Assembly (NCBI GenBank): GCA_947493695.1
Contig: CANLSF010000007.1
Span: 248,001-312,000 of the forward strand
Direction of reading: 5' to 3'
Length of the DNA stretch: 64,000 bases
Source of the DNA: an uncultured Kiloniellaceae bacterium
Lineage (GTDB): Bacteria > Pseudomonadota > Alphaproteobacteria > Kiloniellales > Kiloniellaceae
Part shown: positions 19,921 to 30,087 of the stretch, piece after piece
Layout: the number at the start of each line of letters is the position of its first letter
Position numbering within the stretch: the stretch's first letter is position 1
The notes under the pieces: generated by a model
The model's database searches: none
Told to the model about the DNA's origin: nothing
The model's input: the letters and a program-made list of their open reading frames with translations, nothing else
Position numbers and translations under genes: made by a program

Positions 19921-21606
19921 ATGACCACCACATCCGGCCCCCACAACCGCCAGGACAATCAGCGCCAGATCCGCGCCCCGCACGGCAGCGAACTGACCGC
20001 GAAGAGCTGGCTGACGGAAGCCCCATTGCGCATGCTGATGAACAATCTGGATGCCGAGGTTGCCGAACGTCCAAGTGAACTGGTGGTTTACGGCGGCATC
20101 GGCCGAGCGGCGCGCGACTGGAACAGCTTCGACGTTATCACACGCAGTCTGAGAGAACTGAACGAGGACGAGACCCTGCTGGTCCAGTCCGGCAAACCGG
20201 TCGGCGTTTTCAAAACCCACGCCGATGCCCCACGTGTTCTGATCGCCAACTCCAATCTGGTGCCACACTGGGCGAACTGGGATCACTTCCATAAGCTCGA
20301 TAAGGCCGGCCTGATGATGTACGGCCAGATGACGGCAGGCTCCTGGATCTATATCGGCAGCCAGGGCATCGTGCAGGGCACGTACGAAACCTTCGTCGAG
20401 GTCGGACGTCAGCACTATGACGGCAATCTGACCGGGAAATGGATCCTCACCGGTGGTCTGGGCGGCATGGGTGGCGCGCAACCGCTCGCAGCCACGATGG
20501 CCGGCGCCTGTATGCTGGCGGTCGAATGCCAGCCCAGCCGGATCGAGATGCGCCTGGAAACCGGCTACCTGGATCATAAAGCCGACAATCTCGACGACGC
20601 ACTCGAGATGATCTCCACCGCCTGCGCCGAAGGCCGCGCCATTTCAGTTGGACTGCTCGGCAACGCGGGTGAGGTGTTCCCGGAACTGGTCAAACGCGGT
20701 GTGCGCCCGGATGTCGTCACCGACCAGACCAGCGCCCATGACCCCCTGAACGGTTACCTGCCGATTGGCTGGAGCCTCGACCGCTGGGAGCGGACCCGGG
20801 AAAGCGATCCCGCCGAGGTCACAAGGGCCGCCAAGGAATCCATGAAGGTTCAAGTCGAGGCCATGCTTGAATTCCACAAGCAGGGCGTCCCGACCCTCGA
20901 CTACGGCAACAATATCCGTCAGATGGCGCTTGAGATGGGCAGCGAGCACGCCTTCGATTTTCCTGGTTTCGTACCCGCCTACATCCGTCCGCTTTTCTGC
21001 CGCGGCATCGGCCCCTTCCGCTGGGCAGCGCTCTCCGGTGATCCGGAGGACATCTACAAGACCGACGCGAAGGTCAAGGAACTGATCCCCGACAATCCGC
21101 ATCTACACAACTGGCTCGATATGGCCCGCGAGCGCATCCAGTTCCAGGGCCTGCCCTCACGCATCTGCTGGGTCGGCCTTGGCGAACGGGCGCGGCTGGG
21201 TCTGGCCTTCAACGAGATGGTGGCCAAGGGTGAGCTCTCAGCACCTGTCGTGATTGGCCGCGATCATCTGGATTCCGGTTCCGTTGCCAGCCCCAACCGC
21301 GAGACCGAGGGCATGAAAGACGGCTCCGATGCGGTCTCCGACTGGCCCCTGCTCAACGCTCTGCTCAATTGCGCGAGCGGCGCGACCTGGGTTTCGCTGC
21401 ATCACGGTGGCGGAGTCGGCATGGGCTTTTCCCAGCACTCCGGCATGGTCATCGTTGCCGACGGCACCGATGACGCTGCGCGCCGCCTGGAACGGGTCCT
21501 GACCAATGATCCCGCGACCGGCGTCATGCGCCACGCGGACGCCGGTTACGACATCGCCATCGACTGCGCCCGCGAGCACGGTCTGAACCTGCCGATGCTG
21601 GATTGA
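19921..21606 (+). CDS. hutU: Urocanate hydratase
   Basis: This 561-residue enzyme converts urocanate to imidazolone propionate using tightly bound NAD+ in the cytoplasm; it is the second step of histidine degradation. Full-length family sequence is present: '[19 protein letters not shown]', '[20 protein letters not shown]', '[17 protein letters not shown]', '[20 protein letters not shown]', and the catalytic cysteine Cys416 in '[20 protein letters not shown]'. A GGAGAG ribosome site precedes the ATG. hutH and hutI are not in the window. The 26-bp palindrome just upstream should make it HutC-controlled. Confidence 0.97.
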
Positions 21607-21711: not shown

Positions 21712-23667
21712 CTATCCCCGGGACTGTTCCGGTGCAAGGTCGCCGATGTCCTCCGCAAGAACCTCGATCTCCTTCTCGGGAACCGTGGACATTTCCATCT
21801 TGTAGGCCAGGAACCACATCATGGCGCAACCAAGCAGCCAGAAGATGATCTGCCAGGCCCAGATCGAAGGAATACCGAAGGTCCAGTTCGCGGCATCGTT
21901 TGGCGCCCCGAAGATATCGTTGCCTATGACTGCACCCGGACCGATGCCAAAGAACATCCAGGCCAGGGTCACTGCCCAGGCGATCGGCACCAGCTTCTTC
22001 TTCTCAACGGACAGGCTGGCGTGCTCACGCAGGAAGTTGTGATAGACCATGCGATGCTGGGTATCGTCCGCATTCTGGGTCATCATGCAGACCGGAATTA
22101 AGACTGCGAGATTGCAGATAATCCCCCAACCTGCGGAGTGGATCGTGAGTGGCCAGCGCCCCCAGGGCAGCGCACCGCCAGTAATCTGCTGACCGATGGT
22201 CTCGGTAAAGATCACGCCGATCAAGCCCGCCGCAAGGCCCCAGGTCGCCCCTTGACGGGTGATCCAGGGGAACCAGGTGACGGCGGCAAGCGCAGGCCAC
22301 ATCTGGAACCCGAACGCCACCGCCAGACCGCCAAGCAAAACCAGCGCATCGCTCGAGAAGGTCGCGACCAGTAGGGCCGAGATGACGATGAAGGCAACGC
22401 CGATGCGACCAAACAGCTTTTGCGTGGCGTGATCAGCCGTCGGGTTGAGGTAACGCTTGTAGAGATCCCGGGTGAGCATGCCGCCCGCGGTCGACATGTA
22501 GGCAGCGCCGGTCGACTGCATCGCTGCAAGCGCGCAGACCGCCAGCAGGCCGACCAGCCAGGGAGCGGCGTCCGCGATCTGATTGAAGTAGTAAGGCACA
22601 AGGGAATCCGGGTTCGCTGAAATCGACTCCCCGTCCAGAACATTGGAAAGCGCGAGACCAGCCTCCGTCACCGCCGGGTTGGCGCCCAGCAGATGCGCGC
22701 CCATACCCTGGAAGGCGGTGAAGAAGAAGAGAATGCCACCGATGCAGAAGGAAGATGCCCAAACCTGTTGAGGCGCAAAGGGTTTCGGACTGGCATTGCC
22801 AAAGGCCCACATGGTAAAGGCCGGTGCTGACTGAATTCCCATCAGGGCAAACATGTAGGTCAGCACCATGACGCCGGTCCAGAGACCGCCCACCGGTGCC
22901 TCCTTTCCAAGGCCTGCGGTAAACTGAATCACGCCCGGAATGGCGAAGTAAGCATTGTATGCGTCGCCGGGTGTGGTGCCCCACTTGCCGACATCGGACG
23001 CCGCCAGATTGGCAAAGCCCTGGTTCAACGCGGCCCAGCCGCCTGCCAGGTCCAGCGCGATCAGGCCCGTGATCATGATCCCGACAGCCAGAAGAATGCA
23101 CTGAACGGTATCCACATAAGCCACCGCCCGCAGACCGCCGGAGGCGACATAAATGAGCACCACTGCCGAAAGCAGCCAGGTGCCCGCGGTCTTGGAAATC
23201 AGATCGTCGGTCAGAACGTTGAAGAGAAAACCGGACGCGCCGAGCTGAACTCCCAGATAGGGAATGGAGAAAAGCAGAGCCACTAGAACGACCAGAATCC
23301 GGATTGCATCGCCCCGGAAGTAATCCGAGAGCATTTCACCCGGTGTCACATAGCCGAAGCGTTTGCCCAGCATCCACTGGCGCTTAAGAAACATGACGCC
23401 GGTAAAGGGAATGGTCACCGCGTAAAACGACGCGTAGGCGTATTGGAAACCGTCACGATAAACCAGTCCCGGATGCCCCATGAAGGTCCAGCCCGAGAAG
23501 GATGTGGCCGTCGCTGCAAGAATGAAGACCCAAATCGAAAGTCTGCGTCCCGCGATGAAATAATCACTCGCGGTCTTCGCCGTCATAGCCCCTTTGATGC
23601 CCCAGAAAACGCAATAGGCCCAATAGAGTCCCACGAAGACGAAGAGCCAGATTACTTTTGGTGCCAT
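21712..23667 (-). CDS. Sodium:solute symporter, probably for a short-chain monocarboxylate
   Basis: This 651-residue SSS-family transporter has about 13-14 membrane helices. Landmarks include 'SDYFIAGRRLSIWVFILAAT', 'TATSFSGWTFMGHPGLVYRD' and 'MQSTGAAYMSTAGGMLTRDL', the Na+-site region. It is divergent from a short-chain-fatty-acid type regulator with acs beyond it, so acetate, propionate or a similar acid is the inferred substrate; proline- or pantothenate-type cargo cannot be excluded from sequence alone. A GGGAGGAG ribosome site precedes the ATG and a strong terminator follows. Confidence 0.85.
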   Translation of the reverse strand: MAPKVIWLFVFVGLYWAYCVFWGIKGAMTAKTASDYFIAGRRLSIWVFILAATATSFSGWTFMGHPGLVYRDGFQYAYASFYAVTIPFTGVMFLKRQWMLGKRFGYVTPGEMLSDYFRGDAIRILVVLVALLFSIPYLGVQLGASGFLFNVLTDDLISKTAGTWLLSAVVLIYVASGGLRAVAYVDTVQCILLAVGIMITGLIALDLAGGWAALNQGFANLAASDVGKWGTTPGDAYNAYFAIPGVIQFTAGLGKEAPVGGLWTGVMVLTYMFALMGIQSAPAFTMWAFGNASPKPFAPQQVWASSFCIGGILFFFTAFQGMGAHLLGANPAVTEAGLALSNVLDGESISANPDSLVPYYFNQIADAAPWLVGLLAVCALAAMQSTGAAYMSTAGGMLTRDLYKRYLNPTADHATQKLFGRIGVAFIVISALLVATFSSDALVLLGGLAVAFGFQMWPALAAVTWFPWITRQGATWGLAAGLIGVIFTETIGQQITGGALPWGRWPLTIHSAGWGIICNLAVLIPVCMMTQNADDTQHRMVYHNFLREHASLSVEKKKLVPIAWAVTLAWMFFGIGPGAVIGNDIFGAPNDAANWTFGIPSIWAWQIIFWLLGCAMMWFLAYKMEMSTVPEKEIEVLAEDIGDLAPEQSRG

Positions 23668-23885: not shown

Positions 23886-23948
23886 TTTTGCAAGAAATTA
23901 ACTGTAAAAACAGTACCTAGCTATTTTACAATTTGTAACGTTTGTAAA
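23886..23948. promoter_or_regulatory. Cluster of TTTGTAA/TTTTACA-type repeats, candidate ScfR-family operator
   Basis: The divergent symporter/regulator region contains TTTTGCAAG (23886-23894), the palindrome ACTGTAAAAACAGT (23901-23914), and then TTTTACAA, TTTGTAAC and TTTGTAAA (23924-23948). The last two repeats start nine bases apart. A similar nine-base direct repeat of TTTTTACAA lies upstream of acs at 25577-25594. This is the expected position for autoregulation and symporter control by the adjacent XRE regulator; binding is inferred. Confidence 0.5.
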
Positions 23949-23974: not shown

Positions 23975-25516
23975 ATGGCCAAAAAAGCGTTATTAGGCAG
24001 TAAGGTACGCCGGTTACGCCGGGAGCGGAACCTGACCCAGCTTGAGATGGCCAAGGGCGTGGGAATTTCTGCGAGCTATCTCAATCTGATTGAACACAAT
24101 CAGCGTCCATTGACGCTTCCTTTGCTGTTCAAGCTTTCAGAGACCTATGGAGTCGATCTTCAGTCCTTTTCGCAAGACGACGAAAGTCGCCTGCTCGCCG
24201 ACTTGAGTGAACTCTTCGGCGACGCCTTCTTTCGCGACACCTCGATCAAACGCGACGAGCTGAACGAAGCGGTCCGGACAGCGCCGGCGATTTGCCAGGC
24301 AATCCTGATGCTCTATCACGCCTACCGCAATTCCCGCAGCGAAATCCAGGCCCTGGGCGAGCGTCTGTCCGGTGACTCCTTCTTCGCCAGTTCGACTCAC
24401 GAACTCCGCACGCTTCTGACTTCGATCCTCTCCTTCTCCGAGATACTTCAGGATCATGAGAATCTGGATCCCGAACAACGCCAGCGCTTCATCGATGTGG
24501 TGGCGGGCGAGAGCCGGAAGCTCTCGTCTCTTATGACGCGGATGATTGAACAGACCTCGCTCGACAGTTTGCCACGCAACGATCAGGACACACCGCCCGC
24601 AGAGGACCTGGACGACTTTATCCATCAACACAACAACCACTATCCGGACCTCGAGGAAATCGCCGAAGAATTGCGACGCGATGCCGGACTGGGTCCTGAG
24701 GAGACCGACCCTGAGCGGCGCTTCAGTACGCTTGCCGCTCTCTGGCGTCGGCTTGAGACCTCGGCCCTACCCGATATGGATGCCGCACCTGGCCGGTGCC
24801 GGACCCTGAGCGGGCGCTGCTTCCGCCTGGCGCAGAAGATCGCGGCGCGCCATTACAGTTCCAGACTGGAGCAGCTGATCGCCGCCTCTCACCTCACGTC
24901 AGGCGCAGCGCGCGACTTGGCACGTGAGGTCACGGCAAACTACGTCGCGGCGGCCGTCATGATGCCTTACCGACACTACCTCGCCGTCGCACGGGACCTG
25001 CGCTACGATCTGGAACAGTTGACCTGGCGGTTCGGGGTAAGTTTCGAGCAGGCCTGCCAACGGCTTTCGAGTCTGCAGAAACCGGATAACAAGGGACTGC
25101 CCCTTCATTTTGTCCGGGTTGATATCGCGGGCAACATCTCCAAGCGCTTTTCCGCGTCCGGCCTGCGCATCGCCCGCTATGGCGGCGCCTGCCCCCGCCT
25201 CAATCTCCACTCCGCATTTTTAACCCCCGGTCAGACCAATGTTCAGGTCTCGCAAATGCCCGACGGGAGCACCTATCTCTGCCTCGCCCGCAGCATCGTG
25301 AAAACGGAAGGCGGTCATCACAGCCCGAAAAGCCACTATGCGATCGGGATCGGGTGCGACATTAAATACGCCACCGACATCGTGTACGCGGACGATATCA
25401 ATCTCGGCAACAGCAGCATCGTCGTGCCGGTCGGCGTCAGCTGCCGCCTCTGCGAACGGCAAAACTGCCGCCAGCGGGCCTTTCCTGCGATCCTGGGCGA
25501 GACCGTGTCCACATGA
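23975..25516 (+). CDS. ScfR-like XRE regulator with embedded histidine-kinase H-box
   Basis: This 513-residue protein begins with an XRE helix-turn-helix (residues 8-63, 'LTQLEMAKGVGISASYLNLI'). A segment at about 132-195 looks like a HisKA dimerisation domain with the H-box 'SSTHELRTLLTSILSFSEIL' (His142); no kinase ATPase domain follows. The C-terminal part (about 270-513) resembles the DUF2083 region of short-chain acyl-CoA regulators and ends with a cysteine cluster, C490, C493 and C498. No IrrE-type HExxH is seen. Its position between a symporter and acs fits control of acetate or propionate use. A GAGGAA ribosome site precedes the ATG. Confidence 0.82.
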   Translation: MAKKALLGSKVRRLRRERNLTQLEMAKGVGISASYLNLIEHNQRPLTLPLLFKLSETYGVDLQSFSQDDESRLLADLSELFGDAFFRDTSIKRDELNEAVRTAPAICQAILMLYHAYRNSRSEIQALGERLSGDSFFASSTHELRTLLTSILSFSEILQDHENLDPEQRQRFIDVVAGESRKLSSLMTRMIEQTSLDSLPRNDQDTPPAEDLDDFIHQHNNHYPDLEEIAEELRRDAGLGPEETDPERRFSTLAALWRRLETSALPDMDAAPGRCRTLSGRCFRLAQKIAARHYSSRLEQLIAASHLTSGAARDLAREVTANYVAAAVMMPYRHYLAVARDLRYDLEQLTWRFGVSFEQACQRLSSLQKPDNKGLPLHFVRVDIAGNISKRFSASGLRIARYGGACPRLNLHSAFLTPGQTNVQVSQMPDGSTYLCLARSIVKTEGGHHSPKSHYAIGIGCDIKYATDIVYADDINLGNSSIVVPVGVSCRLCERQNCRQRAFPAILGETVST

Positions 25517-25576: not shown

Positions 25577-25594
25577 TTTTTACAATTTTTACAA
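25577..25594. promoter_or_regulatory. Tandem TTTTTACAA repeats upstream of acs
   Basis: TTTTTACAA is repeated head to tail (25577-25585 and 25586-25594). A possible promoter lies downstream, with TTGACT at 25654-25659 and ATATTT at 25677-25682 spaced 17 bp apart. The repeats resemble those in the regulator/symporter control region, and their position upstream of the -35 box would suit an activator. Confidence 0.5.
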
Positions 25595-25760: not shown

Positions 25761-25862
25761 ATGTCCGACGATCGGAAAGTGAAATCCGGAAACGGCCTCT
25801 CCTGGCTCTGGCTGCTTGCCGCGCTCGCCGTTCTTGTCGCGGTTGGCGTCGCGACAGGTTGA
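25761..25862 (+). CDS. 33-residue single-span membrane peptide
   Basis: A short frame starts with ATG at 25761 behind a strong AAGGGAGAGG ribosome site and encodes a charged N-terminus (MSDDRKVKSGNG) and one hydrophobic helix (about residues 13-31, 'LSWLWLLAALAVLVAVGVA'), then stops. It lies between the candidate acs promoter and the acs ATG, 68 bp before acs, so it should be on the acs mRNA. Such leader-position membrane peptides can regulate or accompany a transporter or enzyme, but no function is known. The charge distribution and ribosome site are the evidence that it is real. Confidence 0.6.
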   Translation: MSDDRKVKSGNGLSWLWLLAALAVLVAVGVATG

Positions 25863-25930: not shown

Positions 25931-27877
<1,947 letters not shown>

Positions 27878-27972: not shown

Positions 27973-30087
27973 CTATGCCGCCCGCAGTCTGGCCAGGAAC
28001 CTCTCGAGCTCCTCACGCAACGTATCCGACTGTGACGTCAAATCCCCAACGACATTGACAACTTTTGAAGCAGCGTCGCCGGACTGCTGGGCCGCGGTAT
28101 TCACCTCAATAATGTTCGAAGAAACATCCTGAGTGCCCGATGCGGTCTGCTGGATATTTTGAGCGATATCCTGTGTCGCGGCATTCTGCTCTTCAACCGC
28201 TGCAGCAACCTCAGTGGTCATGGTGTTGATCTTGGACATCGCCTCGACCACCCCTTCAATCTCGCTCACGGTCCGCTGCGTCGAATCCTGCATGGTGCCG
28301 ATCTGCTGACTGATTTCTTCAGTTGCCTTGGCCGTTTGATTGGCCAGAGACTTGACCTCTGAAGCTACCACCGCGAAGCCCTTCCCGGCTTCGCCAGCGC
28401 GGGCCGCCTCAATCGTGGCATTCAACGCCAGCAGGTTGGTCTGCTCAGCAATGTCGTTAATCAGGTTCACGACGTCACCGATCTTCTGTGCACCCTCAGC
28501 CAGGCCTTTCACCGTGGTGTTGGTGGACTCCGCCTGACCCTTGCCGGTTGAGGCAACATTGGCGGCATCCGCAACCTGACGGGCGATCTCCTGGATCGAG
28601 TTGGAGAGCTCCTCAGCCGCGGAAGCCACTGTTTGGGCGGTCACCGTTGCTTCTTCCGAAGCTGCGGCAACCGTGCTTGCCCGGCTTGTGGTCTGTTCGG
28701 AGGCTGCCGAAAGCGATTGCGCCGTGACCTTCATCTCGTCCGCGGCACTACCAACGCCGTCAACCACATTCTTCACACTGGATTCGAGGTCGTCCGCCAT
28801 CTGCAAGGTTGCCTGGCGTTTTTCCTGCTCAGCGCTCTCTTCCCTGCGAAGCCGTTCTTCACGCAGACGGTTGGTCTCGATGGCATTCTCTTTGAATACC
28901 TGCACGGCCTGCGCCATCACGCCGATTTCATCACCGCGGTTCTGTGCGGGCACCTCCGCAGAAGTATCGCCATCAGCGAGGCGGCGCATGGCAGTCGTCA
29001 TCTCGATGATTGGGCGAGAAATCGCGCGGCCGGTCAAGAATGCGAGCAAGATGCCGATAATGATTGCAGCAATAGCAACCACCTCGACCGCGATCACCTC
29101 AAGCTGCATCGTTTCTGTTGCTTGTGGCCCCAATGCATCCTGAGCCGCCTTGTTCGAAAGTTTGATCTGCTCCACTTCATTGGCAAGTTTGGGACCGATC
29201 ACATCGAGTGTTCCTTCGATGAGATTATTCCGGCTAAAGATAGTCTCAACGACGCCACTAAAGGTAGACTTGTATCTCCCCGCCAGTTCAACCACCTTGG
29301 TTGCGAGTTCACGACGTACCGGGTTCTGAAGCTCGCTCAGCATTTCCGAAGCGGTCCGCTCGAAGTCATTGAGTTCCTGATTGGAACGGTCGGCGCTTGC
29401 CTGCTTGTTATCGACCAGGAAGCGGTTCGAATAGAGCCGGGCCAGCAACAGATGGCGTAGCGAAATGCCAGCGCGGTAGGCGGCCGTTGCATCGCCGTCA
29501 TCGAAAGCGCTTTTCATGATCTTGGTCAGCGTGCGTTCCGATTCCGGGCCAATCGCGTTGAGCTGATCAACGAGCTCATTGCGCTGCTTCACGAACCCGG
29601 TAACCTCCTCGAAGGTAGAGCGATAGGTTCCGATTTCATCCGCTGCGGCAACAATTCCAGCCAGATGCTCACTACCCTGGAAGAGTTCTTCTGCACCATG
29701 GATAATGTCTTCGGTGGTAGAGGCGCGTTTCCTGACCACGTCGGCGGCTTCCTCCGAATTGTGAAGAATGTAATTCTTCACACCCAGGCGCGCCGAGAGC
29801 AGGTTCGCCTGAATCCGCCCCATCTGGTTGGTCTGGCGCGCTAAAGTCCTATACTCCTTGAACTGGCTGTTTGCATGCGAAAGGCCGAAGAAGCCAAGGC
29901 CACTCACGATTACAAGAAAGGCCAGCACAGCGCCGGATCCTAGGCCGATTTTCTTGCCAACCGTCAGGTTGGTAAAAAGATTGCCACGGGACTTGGCTGA
30001 CTTTGCAGCTTTGTCTTCCTGAGCCATTGAAGGCTGAGCATTTTCTTCGGAGACTTCCGAGCGGTTCATTACACCATCCTCAGACAT
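27973..30087 (-). CDS. Membrane chemoreceptor with HBM-size sensing domain
   Basis: This 704-residue receptor has an unusual charged cytoplasmic N-terminus (residues 1-45), a first membrane helix (51-70), a 260-residue helical periplasmic domain (71-330), a second helix (331-351), HAMP ('[17 protein letters not shown]') and an MCP signalling domain (about 450-704) with '[20 protein letters not shown]'. The length of the sensing domain and its opening ('[20 protein letters not shown]') resemble the helical bimodular (HBM) class, whose known members bind organic acids or polyamines. It lies just after acs, which suggests but does not prove an organic-acid ligand. An alternative ATG lies at 30069. 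Confidence 0.88.

Follow-up and report, generated by a model that had tools for sequence, protein, structure and literature searches.

A putative acyl-CoA-responsive regulator of the ScfR family with an embedded HisKA domain, a possible docking site for a stand-alone receiver, in an uncultured Kiloniellaceae bacterium

Transcriptional regulators of the ScfR family, such as RamB, PrpR and PccR, combine a helix-turn-helix, an IrrE/M78-like domain and a C-terminal ScfR domain with four cysteines that ligate a [4Fe-4S] cluster. These domains and cysteines, possibly along with most of the residues contacting CoA and, to judge from candidate sites, the two-box logic of the operators, recur in a regulator encoded in the window, the whole stretch of 64,000 nucleotides from an uncultured Kiloniellaceae bacterium that was analysed. 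Unlike the described members of the family, the window regulator carries a HisKA domain of approximately 65 residues between the linker of the helix-turn-helix and the M78-like domain, and regulators of this fused type belong with a kinase, designated K1 here, and a receiver. The acetate two-component system CrbS/CrbR (MxtR/ErdR) resembles this gene set by its transporter-like kinase and by acs as the likely target, but CrbS is described as a hybrid, whereas a receiver domain was detected in none of ten K1 kinases scanned with Pfam; moreover, the receiver of the set is devoid of an output domain, and the ScfR regulator is proposed to serve as the output instead. The DivL-DivK pair of Caulobacter likewise combines a decayed HisKA domain, as a potential dock, with a receiver that stands alone, yet DivL still has its CA domain and exerts its effect on the kinase CckA, whereas the fused HisKA domain is part of a DNA-binding protein without a CA domain, in which docking would have to be assumed. 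Decay of the HisKA domain as in DivL was found across the fused family; the window regulator itself retains the histidine, glutamate and arginine of the H-box. A further ScfR protein, the uncharacterised Pden_1785 of Paracoccus denitrificans, is located beside a two-component system according to excerpts of PMC10370305. Stand-alone receivers are numerous in Alphaproteobacteria and represent 29 of the 76 response regulators in one species, with mostly obscure outputs, as far as the accessible part of PMC13344952 describes them. ScfR regulators, CrbS-like kinases, stand-alone receivers and HisKA pseudokinases are thus each known; among open-licence papers, no description was found of their combination, of a HisKA domain inside an ScfR regulator or of the gene set.

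The window regulator and its domains are specified by the following features:

23975..25516, + strand: XRE-HisKA-M78-ScfR regulator, ATG start, 513 amino acids, domains from Pfam
24005..24163, + strand: XRE helix-turn-helix HTH_3, residues 11-63 (Pfam, 47.8 bits, cut-off 23)
24380..24568, + strand: HisKA/DHp domain PF00512, residues 136-198 (Pfam, 39.5 bits, E 5.7e-10, gathering cut-off 26.9)
24398..24400, + strand: His142 in the H-box STHELRTLL, with Leu147 in place of the proline
24896..25069, + strand: IrrE/M78-like domain (Peptidase_M78), residues 308-365 (Pfam, 48.9 bits)
25073..25492, + strand: ScfRs PF09856 C-terminal domain, residues 367-506 (Pfam, 194.1 bits, cut-off 24)
25190..25192, + strand: Cys406, equivalent of the PrpR [4Fe-4S] ligand Cys363 (pairwise alignment)
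25442..25468, + strand: C490-x2-C493-x4-C498, equivalent of PrpR 447-C-x2-C-x4-C-455 (alignment)

Judged from its sequence, the protein is an ScfR-family (RamB/PrpR-like), presumably acyl-CoA-responsive transcription factor that seems to have captured a DHp domain. The HisKA-like segment noted in the preliminary description of this DNA exceeds the gathering cut-off of Pfam, reaching 43.2 bits when scanned alone, and the claim that an ATPase domain is absent holds as well, since no HATPase match was obtained up to E = 10 in the entire protein. Accordingly, the regulator is not a kinase despite its HisKA domain. The H-box had been called intact, which applies to His142 but not to the proline of the kinase motif HELRTPL, which is replaced by Leu147. 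In phmmer searches, residues 135-199 matched histidine kinases with a best E value of 6.7e-4, and the C-terminal part matched PrpR structures with 1.6e-62. The score of the regulator for the RamB equivalog NF038139 (377.4 bits) is below the curated cut-off of 700 bits, and no Rfam match was present within the 64-kb window.

An AlphaFold2 model, for which fused proteins were aligned in 71 rows, reaches a mean pLDDT of 87.8 and predicts a DHp-like hairpin of the helices 135-160 and 166-195, whereas residues 207-513 superpose on the PrpR chain 6cz6_A with Z 34.8 and an rmsd of 2.4 over 298 residues. A fold search with the whole model returned helix-turn-helix, PrpR and IrrE/PprI rows and no kinase row. 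When the HisKA segment was submitted alone to Foldseek, ranks 1 to 21 were all histidine kinases, with DivL at rank 15, but the best E value was only 0.011 and no match reached 0.001. With VIA-align, FAT domains (Z up to 12.4) outranked HK853 (Z 10.0, rmsd 1.9 over 68 residues), a likeness that was dismissed as helical-bundle noise.

The cysteines Cys406, Cys490, Cys493 and Cys498 correspond in the alignment to the four [4Fe-4S] ligands of Mycobacterium tuberculosis PrpR, as named in the accessible part of PMC6765138, and a cluster is predicted on this basis. The C-terminal CxxCxxxxC motif, previously regarded as a possible metal or redox site, is therefore real and already explained as an expected feature of the family. 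With respect to the CoA contacts of PrpR, four of the five positions mapped through a single pairwise alignment are retained (F283, R381, K390 and K452), and the same alignment places Gln362 of the window regulator at His319 of PrpR, which stacks on the CoA adenine.

The genome of the window bacterium encodes four ScfR proteins, comprising the window regulator, a second fused regulator (C1:320522; L053:4017-5585) with a more decayed HisKA domain (VHRMLT, 21.5 bits, under the cut-off) and two proteins without the insert (L001 and L002). Further fused regulators were searched in 61 genomes of the order and in 385 alphaproteobacterial genomes of the class by means of a profile of regulator residues 1-235, which is matched over nearly its whole length by fused proteins, whereas the matches of unfused proteins stop near 119-137. 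Whole-protein Pfam scans of 11 fused proteins placed HisKA over the cut-off in four (the window regulator, L006, L007 and L015), under it in L004 and detected none in L010, L020, L140, L254, L321 and L258; scanned alone, 38 of 56 fused segments matched HisKA at E <= 0.01. Additionally, an hhalign comparison of 18 divergent regulator segments, most of them picked for lack of the HELR motif, with unrelated kinases from the genome of the window bacterium yielded a probability of 93.7 and an E value of 2e-7 over 60 columns, the histidine being aligned on that of the kinase H-box. In a tree calculated without the insert, one branch (SH-aLRT 98) separates 37 fused from 12 unfused proteins, the latter drawn only from the family of the window bacterium, which suggests a single origin of the fused regulators. 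In a tree of the HisKA domain with 102 rows, built from a small number of columns, most forks are weak. Fused regulators also occur in betaproteobacterial records (Rhodocyclus tenuis L256 and Burkholderiales/Rubrivivax L250-L253 and L258), suggesting transfer or mis-binned contigs; the Rhodocyclus tenuis regulator contains glutamine in place of the H-box histidine.

The closest match of the HisKA segment outside the regulators in the genomes G000 to G003 is a kinase of about 980-1020 amino acids. These K1 kinases, termed CrbS-like here and presumably of the type known as STAC, contain HisKA and HATPase domains in ten of ten scans, whereas the Pfam SSF family was detected at E <= 0.01 in four; for their membrane part, a match with an E value of 6.4e-83 was obtained to the solved chain 10ed_A, which bears the name histidine kinase. 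The H-box and the ATPase motifs are maintained: every one of the 67 distinct partner-kinase domains whose type was caught by the search pattern has the residues H, E, R, T and P, and further partner kinases outside this pattern have an SHEV or SHEMRTPM H-box and intact ATPase motifs.

In the 385 alphaproteobacterial genomes, the fused regulator and a full-length K1 kinase occur together in 44, the regulator alone in one, K1 alone in nine and neither in 331, with the absences being soft because only the best candidates per genome were scored. One of the 45 regulator matches is partial, namely that of the regulator-only genome (G123), which is 68% complete. The 44 genomes with both genes belong to 21 families, and in 37 of them regulator and kinase are located within 10 kb of each other. 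The usual order, on one strand, is regulator, receiver, small protein and kinase. Among 162 regulator loci, the next genes on the same strand include a receiver in 127, a kinase in 118, both in 114 and neither in 31, five of the last group having less than 1 kb of sequence downstream; for the 155 distinct regulators left after de-duplication, the numbers are 121, 113 and 109 for receiver, kinase and both. Of 80 named loci, 65 contain all three genes, five regulator and receiver, and ten the regulator alone; represented among them are Thalassospira, Devosia, Ruegeria, Sulfitobacter and Rhodobacter capsulatus as well as some records of Betaproteobacteria (Rhodocyclus tenuis, Rubrivivax and other MAGs of Burkholderiales), with the gene set being present in genomes of Rhodobacter capsulatus or Ruegeria at L321, L299, L308, L310 and L323. 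The preliminary description had proposed that the HisKA-like segment serves only for dimerisation or receives phosphate from a separate kinase. The link to a separate kinase is borne out by this co-occurrence and by the conserved gene set, but the stand-alone receiver had not been foreseen.

The receivers extend by at most 34 residues past the receiver domain in 127 of 127 cases, which leaves no room for a DNA-binding output; 12 of these mechanically defined open reading frames reach more than 60 residues upstream, where their starts are uncertain. The acidic pair and the motifs LDvMLP, LTA and KPF are conserved in the consensus of the 127 sequences, and Response_reg was the only Pfam domain in three of three receivers scanned. 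A receiver is likewise located near those K1 kinases that lack a fused regulator, in nine of nine loci and mostly at a distance of 2-3 kb, so that the pair of kinase and receiver can exist without the fused regulator. The receiver is consequently not solely an accessory of the regulator, an observation that counts against docking as set out below. An apparent restriction of the receiver to K1 loci with a fused regulator (about 2 of 9 versus 21 of 21 with flanks of 1.5 kb) disappeared when larger flanks were used. The small hydrophobic protein of about 90 amino acids between receiver and kinase (for instance L170:5619-5909 and L129:3568-3846) belongs to no Pfam family over the cut-off, and in genomes with K1 and receiver but without a fused regulator an open reading frame of about 690-700 amino acids lies between both (L362:4164-6266, L365:4151-6229 and L366:9433-11511).

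Neither a receiver nor a kinase adjoins the window regulator. The K1 kinase of its own genome is encoded at C5:426177, and a receiver precedes it by approximately 0.4 kb (L035). A separate stand-alone receiver (L053:6973-7341) accompanies the second fused regulator. Receiver and kinase adjoin the regulator in the nearest relatives outside the genus that keep the H-box residues H, E and R (L294 and L306), and likewise in L138. The window regulator has separated from the set of regulator, receiver and kinase in its own genome.

The window regulator was compared with the kinases of its genome in the region around the H-box. Positions are counted from the H-box histidine (H), and H+7 and H+12 are taken here to be receiver-specificity positions on the basis of EnvZ/PhoQ work. 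The positions H+8, H+11, H+15, H+34 and H+37 were added from the HK853 substitutions given in PDB titles (4jau and the H260A entries). The window regulator (TSSFIVE) is identical to the K1 kinase of its own genome (TSSFIVE) at all seven positions, whereas the runner-up attains four of seven in this comparison, which covered 56 of the 62 kinases of the genome, six loci being missed by the pattern. Since both domains are identical at 27 of 48 positions in the region, versus 18 of 48 for the next best kinase, the identity at the specificity positions partly reflects descent. That the SSF-type kinase has the nearest kinase domain in the genome would also suit a mixed dimer, in which the HisKA domain of the regulator pairs with that of K1, either anchoring the regulator at the membrane or presenting His142 to the ATPase domain of the kinase. 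Such an arrangement would require a membrane protein to swap partners with a soluble DNA-binding dimer and leaves the stand-alone receiver unexplained, and we regard it as highly improbable.

Since the receiver is devoid of an output domain, the kinase is complete and the regulator contains a decayed copy of the receiver-binding domain of this kinase, the regulator is suggested to represent the output of the receiver. The HisKA domain captured from a CrbS-like K1 kinase would thereby be a receiver docking site that joins membrane sensing to acyl-CoA sensing, a reading to which we assign a probability of about 0.5. In this apparently widespread three-part design of reversed polarity, likewise judged about as likely as not, the membrane-bound K1 kinase would phosphorylate the stand-alone receiver, which would dock on the degenerate HisKA domain of the regulator and alter its DNA binding, so that the membrane signal and the intracellular state of acyl-CoA and the [4Fe-4S] cluster might be read jointly by a single acyl-CoA-sensing transcription factor. 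The HisKA domain, normally a giver of phosphate, would now stand on the receiving side of gene control, providing one class of stand-alone receivers with an output. The binding of phosphorylated DivK to the pseudokinase DivL, described in the accessible part of PMC4211667, is a precedent for a decayed HisKA domain that recognizes a phosphorylated stand-alone receiver. In the scheme proposed here, we infer the docking, the flow of phosphate, the ligand and the sign of regulation, setting them beside the domain make-up, the gene set, the co-occurrence, the kinase and receiver motifs, the specificity identity and the candidate operators that were observed at the sequence level. If the HisKA domain is indeed a receiver dock, one conserved receiver class would gain a direct route to DNA, the presence of a kinase domain inside a metabolic one-component regulator would be accounted for, and transporter-coupled and acyl-CoA sensing would converge on a single protein.

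The alternative that His142 is phosphorylated, either by back-transfer from the receiver or directly by the kinase, and that the phospho-histidine form alters DNA binding, was weighed by the composition of the H-box in 158 distinct aligned fused sequences, including the window regulator. The histidine is retained in 149 of them, far more often than the glutamate at H+1 (47 of 158; 48 with Glu or Asp) and the arginine at H+3 (18 of 158, with leucine in 127), and this conservation of histidine exceeds the need of pure docking. Only eight sequences combine the histidine with E/D at H+1 and R/K at H+3. The window regulator is one of these, having glutamate and arginine at the two positions, and its genome encodes both a kinase and an intact receiver, which would be suitable for a phosphorelay. 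On the other hand, the H-box proline (H+5) is missing in all 158 sequences, and the histidine is replaced by phenylalanine in four, glutamine in three and tyrosine in two, corresponding to at least four changes on the tree. Moreover, a K1-type kinase is encoded no more than about 8 kb away from the regulators without histidine at L161, L164, L165 and L169. A phosphorelay therefore appears somewhat unlikely and no more probable than docking without catalysis, since the histidine was lost at least four times and the catalytic positions H+1, H+3 and H+5 have decayed to the extent given above. The four loci just named represent a single lineage with phenylalanine for the H-box histidine (SSFRLRT), in which acs shows 73-76% identity within the locus.

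The residues that are best conserved in the fused HisKA domain are those of the bundle core, with Ile at H+15 in 100%, Phe at H+30 in 93% and Leu at H+41 in 98% of 81 fused sequences and Leu at H+16 also among the most conserved positions, while the catalytic residues decay. This pattern is compatible with a mere dimerisation module, in which the HisKA four-helix bundle spaces the pair of helix-turn-helix domains and has no signalling partner. The paralogues L001 and L002 of the own genome manage without a HisKA domain. Dimerisation alone accounts neither for the co-occurrence with one kinase type in 44 of 45 genomes nor for the shared gene set and the complete identity at the specificity positions, and it is opposed by the retention of Arg at H+10 in 87% and of Ser at H+11 in 92% of the 81 sequences, the serine being found in 146 of all 158. 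We consider this explanation unlikely. The lower half of helix 1 is conserved together with the bundle core, with Glu at H+14 in 92% of the 81 sequences.

Docking of the receiver, the reading preferred here, is also confronted with contrary observations, among them the lack of an adjoining receiver or kinase at the window regulator. The exchange R553A (H+3) in DivL abolishes binding of DivK, and this position is leucine in most of the fused regulators, although it is arginine in the window regulator. Furthermore, the specificity positions drift across the fused family, with Ala at H+8 in 89 and Phe at H+12 in only 42 of 158 sequences. In 51 pairs, the identity of a regulator to its own kinase (0.363) hardly differed from that to other kinases (0.351), with the own kinase ranking anywhere from 0 to 50 of 51; 12 of 66 kinases, intact ones with SHEV or SHEM missed by the pattern, had first been left out of this comparison. 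Mutual information with average-product correction, calculated between regulator and receiver from 127 rows (about 88 effective), was not concentrated on the HisKA domain. The positive control of kinase versus receiver (111 rows; L251, L292 and L302 dropped because the H-box was not found) showed no focus either, and covariation is thus uninformative.

The genetic surroundings of the regulator were inspected for potential targets and operators, which comprise:

21712..23667, - strand: sodium:solute symporter, divergent, 651 amino acids
23933..23947, + strand: candidate operator TTGTAACGTTTGTAA, between symporter and regulator
25580..25594, - strand: candidate operator TTGTAAAAATTGTAA, upstream of acs
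25931..27877, + strand: acs, acetate--CoA ligase (1031 bits, cut-off 725)

The usual half-site of ScfR regulators is TTTGCAAA. A box TTGTAAA/TTTACAA was derived from frequent 8-mers in 18 intergenic stretches between symporter and regulator, and it occurs 177 times within 300 bp upstream of 162 regulators, compared with 9.2 occurrences expected from shuffles. After exclusion of 16 discovery loci, the box was present in 98 of 139 distinct upstream regions. Among the control regions of the scan upstream of the 162 regulators, 116 of 1282 had a box; these belong to mechanically defined open reading frames of which many are not real genes. A second TGTAA is most often 32 bp away (31 counted), and at the window locus the distances are 9 and 31 bp. 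The doubling at 32 bp agrees with the two boxes of ScfR operators described in excerpts of PMC10370305. What the family as a whole appears to share is one TTGTAAA box, in many cases with a second one at a spacing of 31-32 bp.

The window contains eight boxes versus 1.8 expected, and the intergenic stretches on both sides of the regulator account for five of these. The 9-bp tandem TTGTAANNNTTGTAA has exactly two perfect matches in the genome of 6.46 Mb, at 23933-23947 and 25580-25594 of the window, a result that is partly circular because the tandem was read off the same locus; with one mismatch, 16 matches were obtained versus 14 with the reversed control. Of the three further genomes from the genus, G001 has one tandem at the orthologous regulator and G003 one elsewhere, and among 16 more distant genomes it matched in only three, not above the control.

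The link of the regulator to acs proposed earlier is supported by the candidate operator upstream of this gene. The window acs shares 97.6% DNA identity with a second copy (C1:658786; G000:C1:658786-660729) from base 25945 on, whereas the upstream regions differ and no box was found within 420 bp of the second copy. Other members of the genus have one close acs orthologue and one of 71-73% identity, and the orthologue in G001 has another location without a box. Since the box is present near the window acs and absent at the second copy and in G001, it appears that an additional acs came under the control of the window regulator in the source species.

Homologues of the symporter with 77-87% identity were detected in 20 of 163 relative loci scanned, mostly beside operon-type regulators, and a urocanase is encoded next to the symporter at 19921-21606. 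A possible open reading frame of 33 codons (25761-25862, + strand) between the candidate operator and acs includes a hydrophobic segment of the kind usual in membrane peptides, and the 704-amino-acid product of the open reading frame downstream of acs (27973-30087) looks like a methyl-accepting chemotaxis protein.
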